A DNA stretch of 35,230 bases, taken from assembly GCA_029258925.1 (NCBI GenBank), contig JAPDJV010000044.1, positions 1 to 35,230 of the forward strand, given 5' to 3'. This stretch comes from Thermoproteota archaeon (lineage in GTDB: Archaea > Thermoproteota > Thermoprotei_A > EX4484-217-1 > JAPDJV01). The notes below the pieces were generated by a model, which worked only from the letters and a program-made list of their open reading frames with translations, ran no database searches and was not told the DNA's origin. Positions within the stretch are counted from its first letter, which is position 1, and the number at the start of each line of letters is the position of its first letter. Of this stretch, positions 5,487-34,466 are shown piece by piece. A program made the position numbers and the translations under genes.

Positions 5487-8400
5487 ATGGCAAGCTACTC
5501 TAACATAGCTTCAATACTTGCCACGATATTCTTAATAATTTCAATGCTATCACCTACCATAATAGGGCTTAAGGTGAATACGCTTCGTCCTCCAATTAAA
5601 ACCATGAAAACCAATGCAAAGAATTGCAGTGTACTTACAATAAGTAGAATAAATACATTTAAGAAACCTTTAATGGAGTCTCCCGAAACCTCTGGAGACT
5701 ATGGGGACACTGTTGTTTTTGTTGAAGACTTTGAAGGAGAGTTTCCGGGAGAATGGTATGTTGAAGATTTAGATAATGCTTCTGGATTTGACTATTGGGG
5801 TGATGATGATTACAGGGCCTACGAGGGCAATTGGAGTTGCTGGTGTGCTAAGACAGGAGAGCATTCGGAAGAGAATGTGCCGAATAGTGAGGTACGCTTA
5901 TACGATAACTACATGGGCGCCGTACTAGCTAGGGGAGGATTTGATGCAAGGTCTTGGGACGTGGCTTCAATATCTTTCTATACATGGTACGATATTGAGG
6001 AGGAATACGATTATCTTTATCTCTTCGTATACGATGGAGAGGACTGGCACATGATATGGGAGGCTACGGGCTCAACTAATGGTGAGTGGAGGTATGTAGA
6101 TATTAGAGTGCCCGATGAATATCTTAATACAGATGATTTCTGGCTCGCATTCTACTTTTATTCTGATATGAGCATATACTTCGAGGGAGCTTATTTAGAC
6201 TACATCCAGGTTAAAACATATGATATTGGACTACTAGATTATAATTTGAACACTAACATTACCAATCCGGGTGAAGCATTCGAGATAAGCTATTATATTG
6301 ATAACAGTTCTCCCTATAATATAGAAGTGGGTCTTGGTGCAGCCCTTAGGGATCCCAATGGAAATATTATCTACGATCATGAAAACGATGTAGTAGTAAC
6401 TGTTCCAGCAAACAGTACTGTATGGGCGGAGAGATTGTTCAAGATGCCCTCAGACGCTGTGAGCGGTAGCTACGATCTCCAGCTAACCTTATGGTCCGGG
6501 GATCCATGGAATAGTAGGCTCTGGCACGATTCCGGATGGATAAGCAATGCGATAGAGTTAGAGTCGAACGAATACTTTTACGATGTAACAATAAATCCCT
6601 TAGACTCTGATGGCGATGGATATAATGATGGGCTTGAAATCGAAATGGATGTAGATACAACCGATGGAACGCTAATGGTTACTGTTGCAGGCTACTTGGT
6701 TGATAGTAATAATAATGTTGTTAACAGTAGTTACGCTTCATGGCAGATAACTGGTGACGCTGTGGAATACGGATACTTGTATGTCTATGTTCCAAATAGT
6801 TCTGAAGCCGGAAACTACCATGTAGACTTGTACCTATATGATGATGAAGGAGATCTTGAAGACTATTATACTTCGGAAAACTATTACCTTTACCCACCTG
6901 GATACCAGGTTCCAGTTAAGAAGTGGACTTTCATAGTTTACCTGGACGGAGATAATAACTTGGAGGATGCAGCTCTGAGAGATCTGAATGAGATGGAGAG
7001 AGTTGGTTCAAACAGTGACATCAATATTTTAGTGTTATTCGATCCATATTCGGGCTATGGAAGTTACGTTTACTACATCGTCCACGACGAAGACGACGAT
7101 GAAGTGAATTCTCCATGCAGTGAACTAGGTGAAGTAAACATGGGAGATCCAAGTACGCTTGCATTGTTCACCGAGTGGGCTATAGAAAACTTTCCTGCAG
7201 AACACTACGTTCTAGTAGTCTGGAATCACGGCAATGGATGGAAGGCTCACGATATTGGCGAAACAGCTGTCTGTTCCGACGACACGGACGAAGATATTCT
7301 AACTATTTGGGAACTCGAAGAAGCTCTAGAGAACATATATGAGGAGAAAGGCGTTGTGATGGATATTATAGCGTTTGATGCGTGTCTAATGGGAATGTTC
7401 GAGGTAGGATATCAAGTAAAAGACTACACTAAAATAATGGTTGCATCAGAGGAGACAGTTCCAGGAAGCGGTTATCCATACGACGCCATCCTATTGGAAC
7501 TAGTATCTAATCCCTCGATGAGTCCAGAAGATCTTTCCAGGATAATTGTAGAAAAGTACATGGAGTTCTATGGTACAAGTGGAGATGAAACTCTCTCAGC
7601 TCTGGATCTAGACAAGGCCAGCGATGTTGCAAATGCGCTCGACAATTTAGCGTACATGCTAATTATTAACGTTAAAAACTATTATGATGAGATCTACGAT
7701 GCATGGAACTACGTGGAGTACTTTCACTACTATTACTACAATGACCTATACCATTATGCACAACTCATTCAAGAATACATTCAAGACGTTGCCATTCAGC
7801 AGGCTGCAGTAAATGTAATGGATGTCGTCGAAGACGCCATAATAGCTGAAGGACATGGATCTGAGCACTCCAACGCGCATGGAATATCAATATATCTCCC
7901 AGCACACGAGGAAAACTACTTCGAGCACTACGAATACTTGAAGTTGTCGCAGGACACTAGGTGGGATGACTTCATAAGAGCTTTCCTGAATCCGGAGGAA
8001 GTGCCAGAAGGCATCCTATGGTACTGTACGGTTTCAATAGAAGAAGGAGAATACTACGACTACGTTGTTTTCGGCGAGGCAACAGACTCCACTGACAGTC
8101 TTGACAATAGAGATGTACCGAATCCTCCTCCAAGTCCAAGTCAAGCCGTGGACATTTATCTCGCAACAGATCTTCCATCACCATATGATAAGCTCTGGGA
8201 GGATTGGCGGAAGGGGCCGAGCAGTAGTAAGGGTTGGATTCTAATAGTTCACTCATACACTACAACACCTATAACAATAACTTTAACATGGAGTTTTGAT
8301 CACCCCGAGAACTTTGAGTATTCTTCAGTAATTCTACGAGACGATACCACTGGCTGTAGAATAGATATGATGGAAAACTCGAGTTACCAGTTTACGTTGA

Positions 8401-31512: not shown

Positions 31513-31875
31513 CTAACCCTTCTTCTCTAAGGCCTTCTTCAACTCTCTTATTCTCTCCTCAACCCCCTTAAGCTCCTCTTGTAAATCCCTTAAGTCTTCC
31601 TCGAGAGCTCTCTTATAGTCTTCTAGCATTGCAAGCTCTTCTTCCGGAGTCATAGGTGGAGGCGGTGGTGGTGGCATGTAATAGTATGGTGGATAGTAGG
31701 CTTGAGGCGGATAGTATGAAGGATATTGAGATGGCTGCGGGTATTGCTGTGCCGACGGCTGCTGGGACTGCTGTTGTGGTTGTGTGGGTTGGTATGTTGG
31801 TGGAGGCGGTGGCGGAGGCGGGGGTGGAGGAGTGTAATATAATCCTCTACGGTACCATCTATACCACCATGCCAT
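31513..31875 (-). CDS. Pro/Tyr/Gln-rich protein with C-terminal coiled coil (DUF5320-like)
   Basis: The 120 residues open MAWWYRWYRRGLYY. They continue through an 11-proline run, a Pro/Gln/Tyr stretch (about 27-60) and YYPPYYYMPPPPPPP, and end in a charged coiled coil at about 75-120 (EEELAMLEDYKRALEEDLRD and on). The coiled-coil tail recalls DUF5320 proteins of archaea and anaerobes. The low-complexity part is unusual. ATG has AGGTGA about 5 bases before. It is the last of three adjacent aromatic-rich genes. It could build a cytoplasmic assembly, but no function is known. Confidence 0.66.
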   Translation of the reverse strand: MAWWYRWYRRGLYYTPPPPPPPPPPPTYQPTQPQQQSQQPSAQQYPQPSQYPSYYPPQAYYPPYYYMPPPPPPPMTPEEELAMLEDYKRALEEDLRDLQEELKGVEERIRELKKALEKKG

Positions 31876-31969
31876 TCAAATCACCTATTTGAGACATTTC
31901 CCGATTAGAATAATGTGTTATTGCTAAAAAAGATTGTGGTAAAAAATTTGTTTAAATTAAGTTTTTATT

Positions 31970-32167
31970 TTACTGTTTTGGCACTTCAATCATAGGCTTC
32001 GTTAGTGCTTCAAGAGCCTTCTTCCACGCGTCAAGCATCGTTCTATACGTTTCAAACAGTATTGCATAGTAGTATGGGTACATCATCCAGTACATCATCG
32101 TGCTCATCATAGTGAACGGATCGTACGGCATTACTGGTGGACCATAATAATAGTACCACCAGTACAC
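31970..32167 (-). CDS. Met/Tyr-rich 65-residue protein with an amphipathic tail
   Basis: It begins MYWWYYYYGPPVMPYDPF, followed by TMMSTMMYWMMYPYYYAILF and a helix TYRTMLDAWKKALEALTKP. Over a third of the residues are Tyr, Met or Trp. GTG 32167 lies 6 bases after the stop of the previous gene, and GGTGGTGA overlapping that stop serves as its ribosome site. No family is recognised. Its helix could pair with the coiled coil of the downstream protein (inference). Confidence 0.6.
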   Translation of the reverse strand: MYWWYYYYGPPVMPYDPFTMMSTMMYWMMYPYYYAILFETYRTMLDAWKKALEALTKPMIEVPKQ

Positions 32168-32173
32168 TTCTAT

Positions 32174-32452
32174 TCACCACCAGTACCAGCCATATCTAGG
32201 GTAGTATGGTACTGGCCAACCGTATCCCGGGTAATATGGCGTAGGATACCATGGATAATACGTTGGATACCATGGGTAAGCCCATCTAGCACCCCATGGA
32301 TAGCCGAAGAGCCACCAGCAAGATCCTCTGCCAAATAGCCAGCCAGGTCTCTGCCATGGTGGGAGATAGCTGAATGGTCCTCTACCAGGCCAAGGTCCTC
32401 TCCAGCCCCACCTGTAACCTCCTCCTCTTCCCCAGCCTGGGAACCAGGCCAT
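32174..32452 (-). CDS. Trp/Gly/Pro/Tyr-rich 92-residue protein
   Basis: The sequence runs MAWFPGWGRGGGYRWGWRGP, then GSCWWLFGYPWGARWAYPWY and repeated YP(W/T)YP and YYPxYGW units, ending YGWYWW. Tryptophan makes up roughly a fifth of the chain, which is exceptional. It has no charged helix or signal peptide. ATG 32452 is chosen because GGTGAG lies 4 bases before, and the opening MAW matches the third gene of the group. GTG 32461 is the alternative. First gene of the group, behind a 12-bp inverted repeat. Function unknown. Confidence 0.62.
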   Translation of the reverse strand: MAWFPGWGRGGGYRWGWRGPWPGRGPFSYLPPWQRPGWLFGRGSCWWLFGYPWGARWAYPWYPTYYPWYPTPYYPGYGWPVPYYPRYGWYWW

Positions 32453-32491
32453 GTTGCTCACCCAAGTATATTATGTGCAATAGTTCAAAAT

Positions 32492-32521
32492 AAATTTTTC
32501 GTGCAATACCACGAAAAATTT
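32492..32521 (-). promoter_or_regulatory. 12-bp perfect inverted repeat upstream of the aromatic-rich gene group
   Basis: AAATTTTTCGTG (32492-32503) and CACGAAAAATTT (32510-32521) flank CAATAC. The repeat ends 40 bases before ATG 32452 and abuts an AT-rich TATA candidate (AATTTATTTTG on the minus strand). It is also about 90 bases past the AOR stop, so it may act as an operator, as the AOR terminator, or as both. Confidence 0.5.
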
Positions 32522-32609
32522 AGCCCAATGTAAATGTAGGGTGATTCTGGATACAATTTAATGTAAACAATTCTTATAGATCATTATGGAGAAAAAGGTT
32601 GTTTAGGTT

Positions 32610-34457
32610 TTAACCGTAGAGAACTCTTGCTACATCTTCTAATCCGAGTTCAACAAGTTTCTCCCTAGTGGGTTTACCGTCGGGATCCCATCCTCTAAGC
32701 TTATAGTACTCGTTCAGCATTGGCTCTAATGCTATCAGCGAGTGCTTGGGATGCACTGGCTTAAACATCTTATAGGGTAGGGTATCGTCTTTTCTTGAAA
32801 CACCCATTCTAACATCGAATGCTCTCTGCAAGTTGAACACTCTTTCACAGGTCTTAGCAAACTCCTCCATGGACATGTTCCAACCGGTTATAGCGTTTAA
32901 GAGGTTCAGTTTATCCGTTACAGTGCATCCTCCAAACGCCATAAACTTGCACTGTATTAAGCAGTCGCACATGCCTTCAAGATCCTGATACTTTATTGTA
33001 GCAAATGCCTGTCCAACCCAGCTTCGTCTATCCGTGGGTTTCTCTAATCCGAATTCAGGTATTACTAGTCCAAGTTCCATACAGAATGGGTCTGCTCTTT
33101 CGTGGCATGCACCCCTTGTTCCCGTGGCATAGTTTATTGCCATAGATAAATGGGCTCTTGGATCATGTGCTGGTATATCAAGTCCCTTAACGTGTACTAT
33201 TATATCGGGAGCACCCTTACCTATTTTCTCAGCTGCCCTCTTGATTCCCTCCGCCAAGACGTCTCCAAGATCTTTCCTCAAAGCTATTTTCTCAACCATA
33301 GCTACCACTGCATCTCCATCTCCCCACTTCAACTCTATTCCTCCAGTATCATTCTTCGTTATCCAACCATTCTCATAGCATTCCATGGCGAATCCTACTA
33401 GGGCTCCAGCGGATATGACGTCTAGGCCATAGCGGTTACATAAGTCATTGGCTTTTGCAACTGCTTCAAGACTATCCACTAGGCAGTTTGTTCCAAACAT
33501 TGCTATAGCCTCATATTCTGGGCCAGCGCCCTCGCAGGCATACTTCTCCGGCTTCTCAACCTTAATGTACCTGTGACAGCCTATTGGACAATTCAGGCAG
33601 GGCTCTTTCTTTACAAATATTTTCTCAGTGTACCTTGGAGCTCCTAAAGCCATTATTCCAGATATGAATTCTCCCTGACTCCAATACTTTACTGGAACAT
33701 CACCCATGAGCTCGTAGCCAACTGGCATGTAGAATGGCGTTCCATGTGCACCAAATGCCGCAGCTCCTTCAGCTATTTTAGGATAAAGCTCCTTACAGAG
33801 CTCCTCAAGTTTCCCTGGTTCAGCTACTTCAACCTCTTTAGTTCCCCTAACCGCAACTGCTTTAAGGTTCTTAGAACCCATTACTGCGCCTAAACCACAT
33901 CTTCCCGCAAACGCGTGTTTATCGCTCATTATACAAGCTATTCTAACAAGATTCTCTCCTGCCTGACCTATAGTGGCAACTTTGGCTTTGGGCTCTCCAA
34001 GCTCCTTTATTATGGCATCATGGGCTTCATAGCTGTCCATACCCCAAAAGTGGGATGCATCCCTTATCTCCACTTCACCATCTTTTATCCAAATGTAAAC
34101 AGGTTTCTCGGCTCTTCCCTGCACGATCAACGCATCGAAACCTGTTTTCTTGAATTCAGGACCCCATGCCCCGCCAGCACAGGAGTCAGCCCATATTCCC
34201 GTTAGCGGCGAGCGGGCTGCAGCAATCCATCTCCCACTTCCCGGGGCCCTAGTTCCCTGATATGGCCCAACGGCGAAGACCAGTCTGTTCTCGGGGCTAA
34301 GGGGATCTACTCCCGGACCCACTTCATCAAATATTATTTTTGCAGCTAGCCCTGCACCGCCAATAAACTTCCTGTAGAAACCCTCCTTCACCTCCTCTAC
34401 TTTAACCTCCCCCCTAGTTAAGTCAACTCTAAGAATTTTACCCATGTAACCGTACAT
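32610..34457 (-). CDS. Aldehyde:ferredoxin oxidoreductase (tungsten AOR family)
   Basis: It oxidises aldehydes to acids and passes electrons to ferredoxin, in the cytoplasm. The 615-residue chain has the family order: GYMGKILRVDLTRGEVKVE, FIGGAGLAAKIIFDEV, GSGRWIAAARSPLTGIWADSCAGG (bis-pterin site), GRCGLGAVMGSKNLKAVAVRG, and the [4Fe-4S] ligands Cys287, 290, 294 (CLNCPIGC) and Cys503 (CLIQCKF). GLDIPAHDPRAH is the second pterin-side motif. Length agrees with P. furiosus AOR (605). ATG 34457 has AGGTGA 5 bases before. GTG 34466 is a weaker option. The aldehyde used (general AOR, formaldehyde or GAP type) cannot be settled. Confidence 0.93.
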   Translation of the reverse strand: MYGYMGKILRVDLTRGEVKVEEVKEGFYRKFIGGAGLAAKIIFDEVGPGVDPLSPENRLVFAVGPYQGTRAPGSGRWIAAARSPLTGIWADSCAGGAWGPEFKKTGFDALIVQGRAEKPVYIWIKDGEVEIRDASHFWGMDSYEAHDAIIKELGEPKAKVATIGQAGENLVRIACIMSDKHAFAGRCGLGAVMGSKNLKAVAVRGTKEVEVAEPGKLEELCKELYPKIAEGAAAFGAHGTPFYMPVGYELMGDVPVKYWSQGEFISGIMALGAPRYTEKIFVKKEPCLNCPIGCHRYIKVEKPEKYACEGAGPEYEAIAMFGTNCLVDSLEAVAKANDLCNRYGLDVISAGALVGFAMECYENGWITKNDTGGIELKWGDGDAVVAMVEKIALRKDLGDVLAEGIKRAAEKIGKGAPDIIVHVKGLDIPAHDPRAHLSMAINYATGTRGACHERADPFCMELGLVIPEFGLEKPTDRRSWVGQAFATIKYQDLEGMCDCLIQCKFMAFGGCTVTDKLNLLNAITGWNMSMEEFAKTCERVFNLQRAFDVRMGVSRKDDTLPYKMFKPVHPKHSLIALEPMLNEYYKLRGWDPDGKPTREKLVELGLEDVARVLYG

Positions 34458-34466
34458 TTTCTTCAC

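Follow-up and report, generated by a model that had tools for sequence, protein, structure and literature searches.

What is the function of three adjacent archaeal genes whose small products are extremely rich in tryptophan, tyrosine, proline and methionine? The window, by which we mean the whole stretch of 35,230 nucleotides analyzed here, contains three such neighbors, named A, B and C. The initial annotation had singled them out for this composition; all three frames are found at the place it gave, on the minus strand, and their composition is as it described.

Organization and conservation of the trio

32174-32452, minus strand: gene A, W/G/P/R-rich protein of 92 residues, starting MAWFPGW
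31970-32167, minus strand: gene B, Met/Tyr-rich protein of 65 residues with a GTG start, beginning MYWWYYYY
31513-31875, minus strand: gene C, protein of 120 residues, starting MAWWYRWYRR
32458-32463, minus strand: Shine-Dalgarno sequence GGGTGA of A
32174-32181, minus strand: Shine-Dalgarno sequence GGTGGTGA of B, overlapping the stop codon (TGA) of A
31880-31885, minus strand: Shine-Dalgarno sequence GGTGAT of C

The genes had also been described as tightly ordered. This holds for A and B, which are separated by 6 nt, but not for C, which lies 94 nt from B, possesses its own Shine-Dalgarno sequence and may have its own promoter. Conservation of the trio, which had been named among the points to examine, extends to other families and orders of the class: orthologues in the same order occur in G001 and G006, both from other families and G006 also from another order, and dN/dS for close pairs of trio orthologues is 0.02–0.18 (0.07–0.18 for A). 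On these comparative grounds the three genes are under purifying selection and are genuine rather than chance frames. In two of the nearest relatives, C is followed by a gene for a zinc-ribbon protein with G/R/K/W-rich flanks (L063:6154-6381 and L077:4179-4454).

Features of the encoded proteins

Protein A contains 17 Trp, 15 Tyr, 17 Pro, 17 Gly and 8 Arg and is devoid of Asp and Glu (39% W/Y/F, 18% G, 9% R, 0% D/E), giving a pI of 9.8. It carries the family motif WPGxGPxSxLPPWxRPGWxxGRGxC and has a long Y/P/W tail.

32315-32395, minus strand: conserved motif block of A, residues 20-46, PWPGRGPFSYLPPWQRPGWLFGRGSCW

The PGxG...PPWxRPGW block is nearly invariant in an alignment of 25 proteins. 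Among 76 unfused homologues of A, acidic residues are absent from 61 and GRGxC is present in 68, and the Cys of GRGxC is one of 19 columns that are invariant across 36 unfused homologues. Yet A is predicted to be disordered (pLDDT 48), even with 36 homologues supplied, which for so strongly conserved a protein is expected if the chain takes up its fold on binding a ligand or partner. When one genome per species was scanned, relatives with the A motif appeared at 211 loci, nearly all of them archaeal. The best 80 of these 211 loci belong to Thermoproteota lineages, Bathyarchaeota, Hadesarchaea, Methanomethylicota, Thermococcus, Methanocellales, Archaeoglobi and one Asgard, and include one record labeled WOR-3, a bacterium, which may be mis-binned. 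Within the phylum, 104 of 398 genomes have an A-motif gene.

Protein B (12 Tyr, 10 Met) has an aromatic N terminus, and AlphaFold predicts a single helix of 44 residues (residues 17-60) with pLDDT above 90 over its middle. It is found beside A at 24 of the loci examined, some of which were reached twice. Its Kyte-Doolittle maximum of 0.73 is below the usual 1.6 for transmembrane segments and its Wimley-White octanol score is favorable; with these scores and the predicted helix, a soluble-bundle helix and a membrane-associated helix are both compatible. A Pfam match of B to ELO (E 0.36) was put down to chance arising from composition or coiled coil.

Protein C (29 Pro, 15 Tyr, 13 Gln) consists of an aromatic/Arg-rich N terminus, a poly-Pro/Gln/Tyr middle and a C-terminal coiled coil.

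31516-31653, minus strand: coiled-coil segment of C, TPEEELAMLEDYKRALEEDLRDLQEELKGVEERIRELKKALEKKG

Pfam matches of C to Prefoldin and Tektin were dismissed on the same grounds as that of B to ELO, and a search of NCBIfam gave no useful match. A site for metal binding by several cysteines was found in none of the three proteins, nor was a NifX domain, and both points weigh against the metal-sulfur role proposed below.

The trio is a split DUF5320-like protein

In many relatives, the motif of A and the coiled coil of C form one DUF5320-like protein of 83-126 residues, which aligns N-terminally with A and C-terminally with C. Since the two parts are so joined elsewhere, the trio is, by these alignments, a split form of this protein with B added. 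Of the 25 motif-family proteins, 13 match the DUF5320 profile (PF17253; best E 4e-8). In the window, residues 69-103 of C align to profile positions 63-97 with 21 bits (E 8e-4), below the curated cut-off of 27 bits, and A and B have no match to DUF5320 in a Pfam profile search; a DUF5320 search of the window's own genome likewise gave no match. We therefore call the proteins DUF5320-like and do not place the trio in DUF5320. The likeness extends to the one-piece relatives, which combine a G/R/aromatic N terminus with a coiled-coil C terminus. Here, in contrast, each half has its own gene, that for a third protein, B, lies in the middle, and A has the PPWxRPGW motif and its long tail. A search of the literature available to us on DUF5320, DUF134 and UPF0251 found no functional study.

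Gene neighborhoods and fusions

Neighbors were counted with profiles of our own building within 3 kb of the motif ORF at 79 named loci. A DUF134 gene is present at 44 of these, a NifX-like gene at 38 and a MinD/ferredoxin ATPase gene at 32, and 63 loci have at least one of the three. At L117 the genes form a single-strand run, DUF134-A-B-C-NifX-MinD-MinD, and complete operons are also found at L116, L136 and L149, the order at L136 being NifX-MinD-MinD-A-B-C. In addition, NifX is fused to a G/R-rich tail or linker and a coiled coil at seven loci (L112, L125, L144, L155, L177, L181 and L187); the coiled coil of C is of the same type as that of some NifX fusions and as the C terminus of the one-piece relatives. 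In Thermococcus (record L157), a NifX gene and an A-type gene overlap at the end of the former.

B is altered in G016 and G037. At the G037 locus (L061), compared with its close relative G016, B lacks its middle and is 36 residues long, and the NifX gene upstream of A is an open frame of 78 residues versus 160; from these sequences, the module seems to be decaying in G037.

The genome to which the window belongs has these genes scattered, with the trio on contig C19, a NifX-MinD-MinD operon on C3, a second NifX gene on C4 and DUF134 on C2. That the trio is not physically beside NifX, MinD or DUF134 here speaks against assigning it to their system. In the C3 operon (L108), the NifX gene precedes a pair of genes for MinD ATPases that carry Fer4 domains (Pfam CbiA/ParA plus Fer4), an order that recurs at many other loci. 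It is adjoined by a NifU_N gene and two class-V aminotransferase (cysteine-desulfurase-type) genes (L108:6302-8501), one of which looks split or frameshifted.

A shared palindromic operator

Upstream of A, a palindrome, ATTTTGTGCNNNNGCACAAAAT, is found at 77 of 102 loci, some of which were reached twice. Sites were scored with a weight matrix (consensus ATTTTGTGCAATTGCACAAAAT), with a minimum of 8 bits and a maximum distance of 150 bp from A; this count is partly circular, because the training sites of the matrix came from the same loci. Elsewhere than upstream of A, 18 sites occur in 1.02 Mb, most of them at NifX, DUF134 or MinD genes. The real matrix gives 120 sites, as opposed to 0-4 for column-permuted symmetric matrices, in which composition and symmetry are preserved. 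The training set contained no site from the window genome and none picked for a position upstream of NifX, so sites of these two kinds are largely free of the circularity.

The window itself contains two sites upstream of A and a weaker one upstream of C:

32470-32491: operator site O1, PWM score 17.3, 17 nt upstream of the ATG of A
32491-32522: operator site O2, PWM score 10.2, a perfect inverted repeat, TAAATTTTTCGTG-caatac-CACGAAAAATTTA
31910-31931: weak, tentative operator-like site, PWM score 5.7, 35 nt upstream of the ATG of C

O2 has 13-bp arms and lies 26 bp from O1, and this is the only place in the genome that matches its core within 3 mismatches. The repeat was also considered as an intrinsic terminator, and none was recognized; a bacterial-type promoter scan gave no information, which is expected in archaea. 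Sites frequently come in tandem, spaced by 24-26 bp (L199, L202, L213 and L216, besides 32470-32522 of the window), and such pairing suggests that the operator is bound cooperatively.

At unlinked places of the same genome, the NifX-MinD-MinD operon on C3 is preceded by an operator site at a distance of 19 nt (score 22.1), and the second NifX gene, on C4, by one at 33 nt (score 13.2). In a Thermococcus genome, a site scoring 32.9 bits lies some tens of nucleotides upstream of an IssA-like gene, and DUF134 follows ~3 kb further on. It is the same operator at unlinked sites of one genome, together with the linked operons of other genomes, that ties the trio to the NifX-MinD system.

A genome-wide pattern search gave exact matches at two places, namely the site on C3 described above and another on C6. 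The latter directly precedes a gene for a Cys-rich protein (CxHYxNGKC...CPxF; L226:3994-4293, C6 ~5993-6292), itself followed by a radical-SAM gene. The protein has a cationic W/R tail, MWGRRVRRRWRRGRRGFQW, and no Pfam match, and in Thermococcus (L157) the same Cys domain occurs as a fusion with a NifX protein; judged by these features it is probably a further regulon member. Another operator-like site (PWM score 15.7; L227:3895-3916, C1 ~128394) lies after a ribosomal-protein-like gene cluster.

The position of the operator also bears on the tungsten enzyme encoded next to the trio, which the initial annotation had taken as a ground for its cofactor idea. The gene for this aldehyde ferredoxin oxidoreductase-type enzyme (AOR; 32610-34466) lies directly upstream of A on the same strand, and the trio might serve it, for example, as a module for handling tungsten/molybdopterin or thiometallates. 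AOR-family genes also occur near the split loci of G001 and G002 and near L189, and the binding of Mo-Cu-S clusters by NifX-domain orange proteins (PMC6345978) leaves room for thiometallates. However, AOR and A are separated by a gap of 149 bp with the operator inside it, no operator-like site was found at the 5′ end of the AOR gene, and an AOR gene lies within 3 kb of the motif gene at only 2 of the 79 named loci. Moreover, the AOR of the window is not an orthologue of the AOR-like genes near G001 and G002, which are from different subfamilies. We regard service to AOR as highly improbable; a partnership is rejected for want of conserved linkage and because the subfamilies differ, and the tungsten-enzyme neighbor is, on this genomic comparison, incidental.

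DUF134 as candidate regulator

DUF134/UPF0251 (PF02001), a protein with a sigma-70-region-4-like HTH, is the candidate reader of the operator. Its gene is beside the motif gene at the 44 loci counted above; it is none of the trio proteins, and in the window genome it is located on another contig. Among near-complete genomes, DUF134 is present in 7 of 7 operator-positive versus 9 of 16 operator-negative ones (hand count; p ~0.05), and the operator occurs in 0 of 7 that have the motif gene and lack DUF134. Named draft genomes contain DUF134 in 22 of 28 cases, in a sample picked largely because its motif loci carry the operator. At most one-piece loci beside DUF134 the operator is absent (L069, L074, L076, L079, L082, L083 and L085); one-piece motif genes directly behind DUF134 may use a different control element, and upstream of DUF134 at the operator-negative loci no consistent alternative palindrome or repeat was found. 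Because several DUF134-bearing genomes lack the operator, its co-occurrence at most suggests that DUF134 is the operator-binding protein.

A proposed role in iron-sulfide storage

The annotation's idea of metal-cofactor handling and its connection to DUF5320 are supported, though in a form that differs from the original one and is narrower, by the conserved DUF134/NifX/MinD neighborhoods, the NifX fusions and the operator common to the trio, the unlinked NifX-MinD-MinD operon and the Thermococcus IssA-like gene. From this genomic evidence, we consider it very probable that the trio belongs to an archaeal metal-sulfur system of the IssA/ORP type. Our full reading, in which we have somewhat more confidence than doubt, is that the split DUF5320-like trio is the scaffold or storage module of an IssA/ORP-type metal-sulfur regulon. 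In this reading the other members of the regulon, which appears to be undescribed, are NifX-like (IssA-like) proteins bearing G/R/W tails, a MinD/ferredoxin ATPase pair and, as the probable regulator, DUF134. As to the module's task, analogy gives bulk iron-sulfide storage, as opposed to cluster delivery or a plain structural role, a nearly even chance.

If so, A would be the free-standing counterpart of the IssA tail, its Arg/Trp/Tyr/Gly chain wrapping an anionic thioferrate-like iron-sulfide polymer that is assembled on the NifX/IssA domain. The coiled coil of C and the long helix of B would serve to cross-link A with the NifX proteins, giving particles, the part given to B being a guess, and the MinD/ferredoxin ATPases would mobilize the stored Fe-S into clusters.

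The proteins could instead form a structural condensate or scaffold held together by Trp/Tyr/Arg/Pro interactions and devoid of any metal role. The composition of A and C, the predicted disorder of the conserved A, the coiled coil in C and the long helix in B would all suit such a material, but against it stand the conserved linkage to NifX/MinD genes, the fusions, the operator that those genes share with the trio and the almost invariant Cys in the GRGxC motif of A, and we consider it quite unlikely. The co-assembling material or condensate that the initial annotation envisaged would be compatible both with a conserved yet predicted disordered A and with the published IssA-thioferrate particles of 20-300 nm (PMC5524996).

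More speculatively, and with the chances leaning against it, many archaea might store iron sulfide in a granule of several subunits that serves anaerobes much as ferritin would. Disordered Trp/Tyr/Arg-rich A proteins would coat or nucleate thioferrate, the coiled-coil and helical linkers C and B would determine how the particle is built, synthesis of the polymer would fall to IssA-like proteins and its mobilization to MinD-type ATPases, and a single palindromic operator, read by DUF134, would serve them all.

The operator and neighborhoods join DUF5320 and DUF134, two families of no known function, into one testable system that is present in many archaeal phyla, and they provide a concrete role hypothesis for a family of extremely Trp-rich archaeal proteins. 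IssA has been characterized in Pyrococcus furiosus; such a system would bear on the packaging and regulation of thioferrate in other organisms. If our reading is true, a protein-bound iron-sulfide store or handling granule would be widespread in anaerobic archaea.

Comparison with the ORP complex and IssA

The ORP complex (MrpORP) of Desulfovibrio also combines a NifX-domain protein with two MinD-type ATPases, and the MinD pair of the operator-sharing operon, with two 4Fe-4S motifs in each protein, matches the description of Orp3/Orp4 (PMC6345978). In contrast, the five published ORP proteins include none of the A, B or C types, and the orp operons are sigma-54-controlled (PMC6345978), whereas control here is by a palindrome, probably with DUF134. 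This pairing of MinD/ferredoxin ATPases raises the question of whether the module is a chaperone or delivery device for one complex metal-sulfur cluster, an ORP-like Mo-Cu-S or Fe-S cofactor, and not a bulk store. The PDB relatives of NifX include an orange protein entry (2wfb), and the genes that adjoin the C3 operon, for a NifU_N scaffold and for cysteine-desulfurase-type enzymes, would fit this role as well. However, the cationic, aromatic, Gly-rich tails are closer to the storage protein IssA, and a cationic C-terminal tail is published as absent from Orp9 (PMC6345978), so that we regard cluster delivery as rather unlikely.

Bulk storage draws on the comparison with IssA, the thioferrate storage protein of P. 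furiosus. Its unstructured tail, Pro-rich and then cationic, aromatic and Gly-rich, was suggested to wind around the anionic chain of thioferrate that is formed on the NifX domain (PMC5524996). The NifX domain (PF02579, IPR003731) has no match in A, B or C, and a difference from IssA is that in the window's own genome it resides on unlinked genes, where the tail is short or absent. Protein A has the composition of the tail: cationic, aromatic and Gly/Pro-rich, with no acidic residues and one Cys. The Thermococcus IssA-like protein of 191 residues, also with one Cys, has a tail that resembles the published one (pI 10.9; 11 Pro, 18 Gly, 9 Arg and 15 aromatic residues), and its gene carries the same operator as A.
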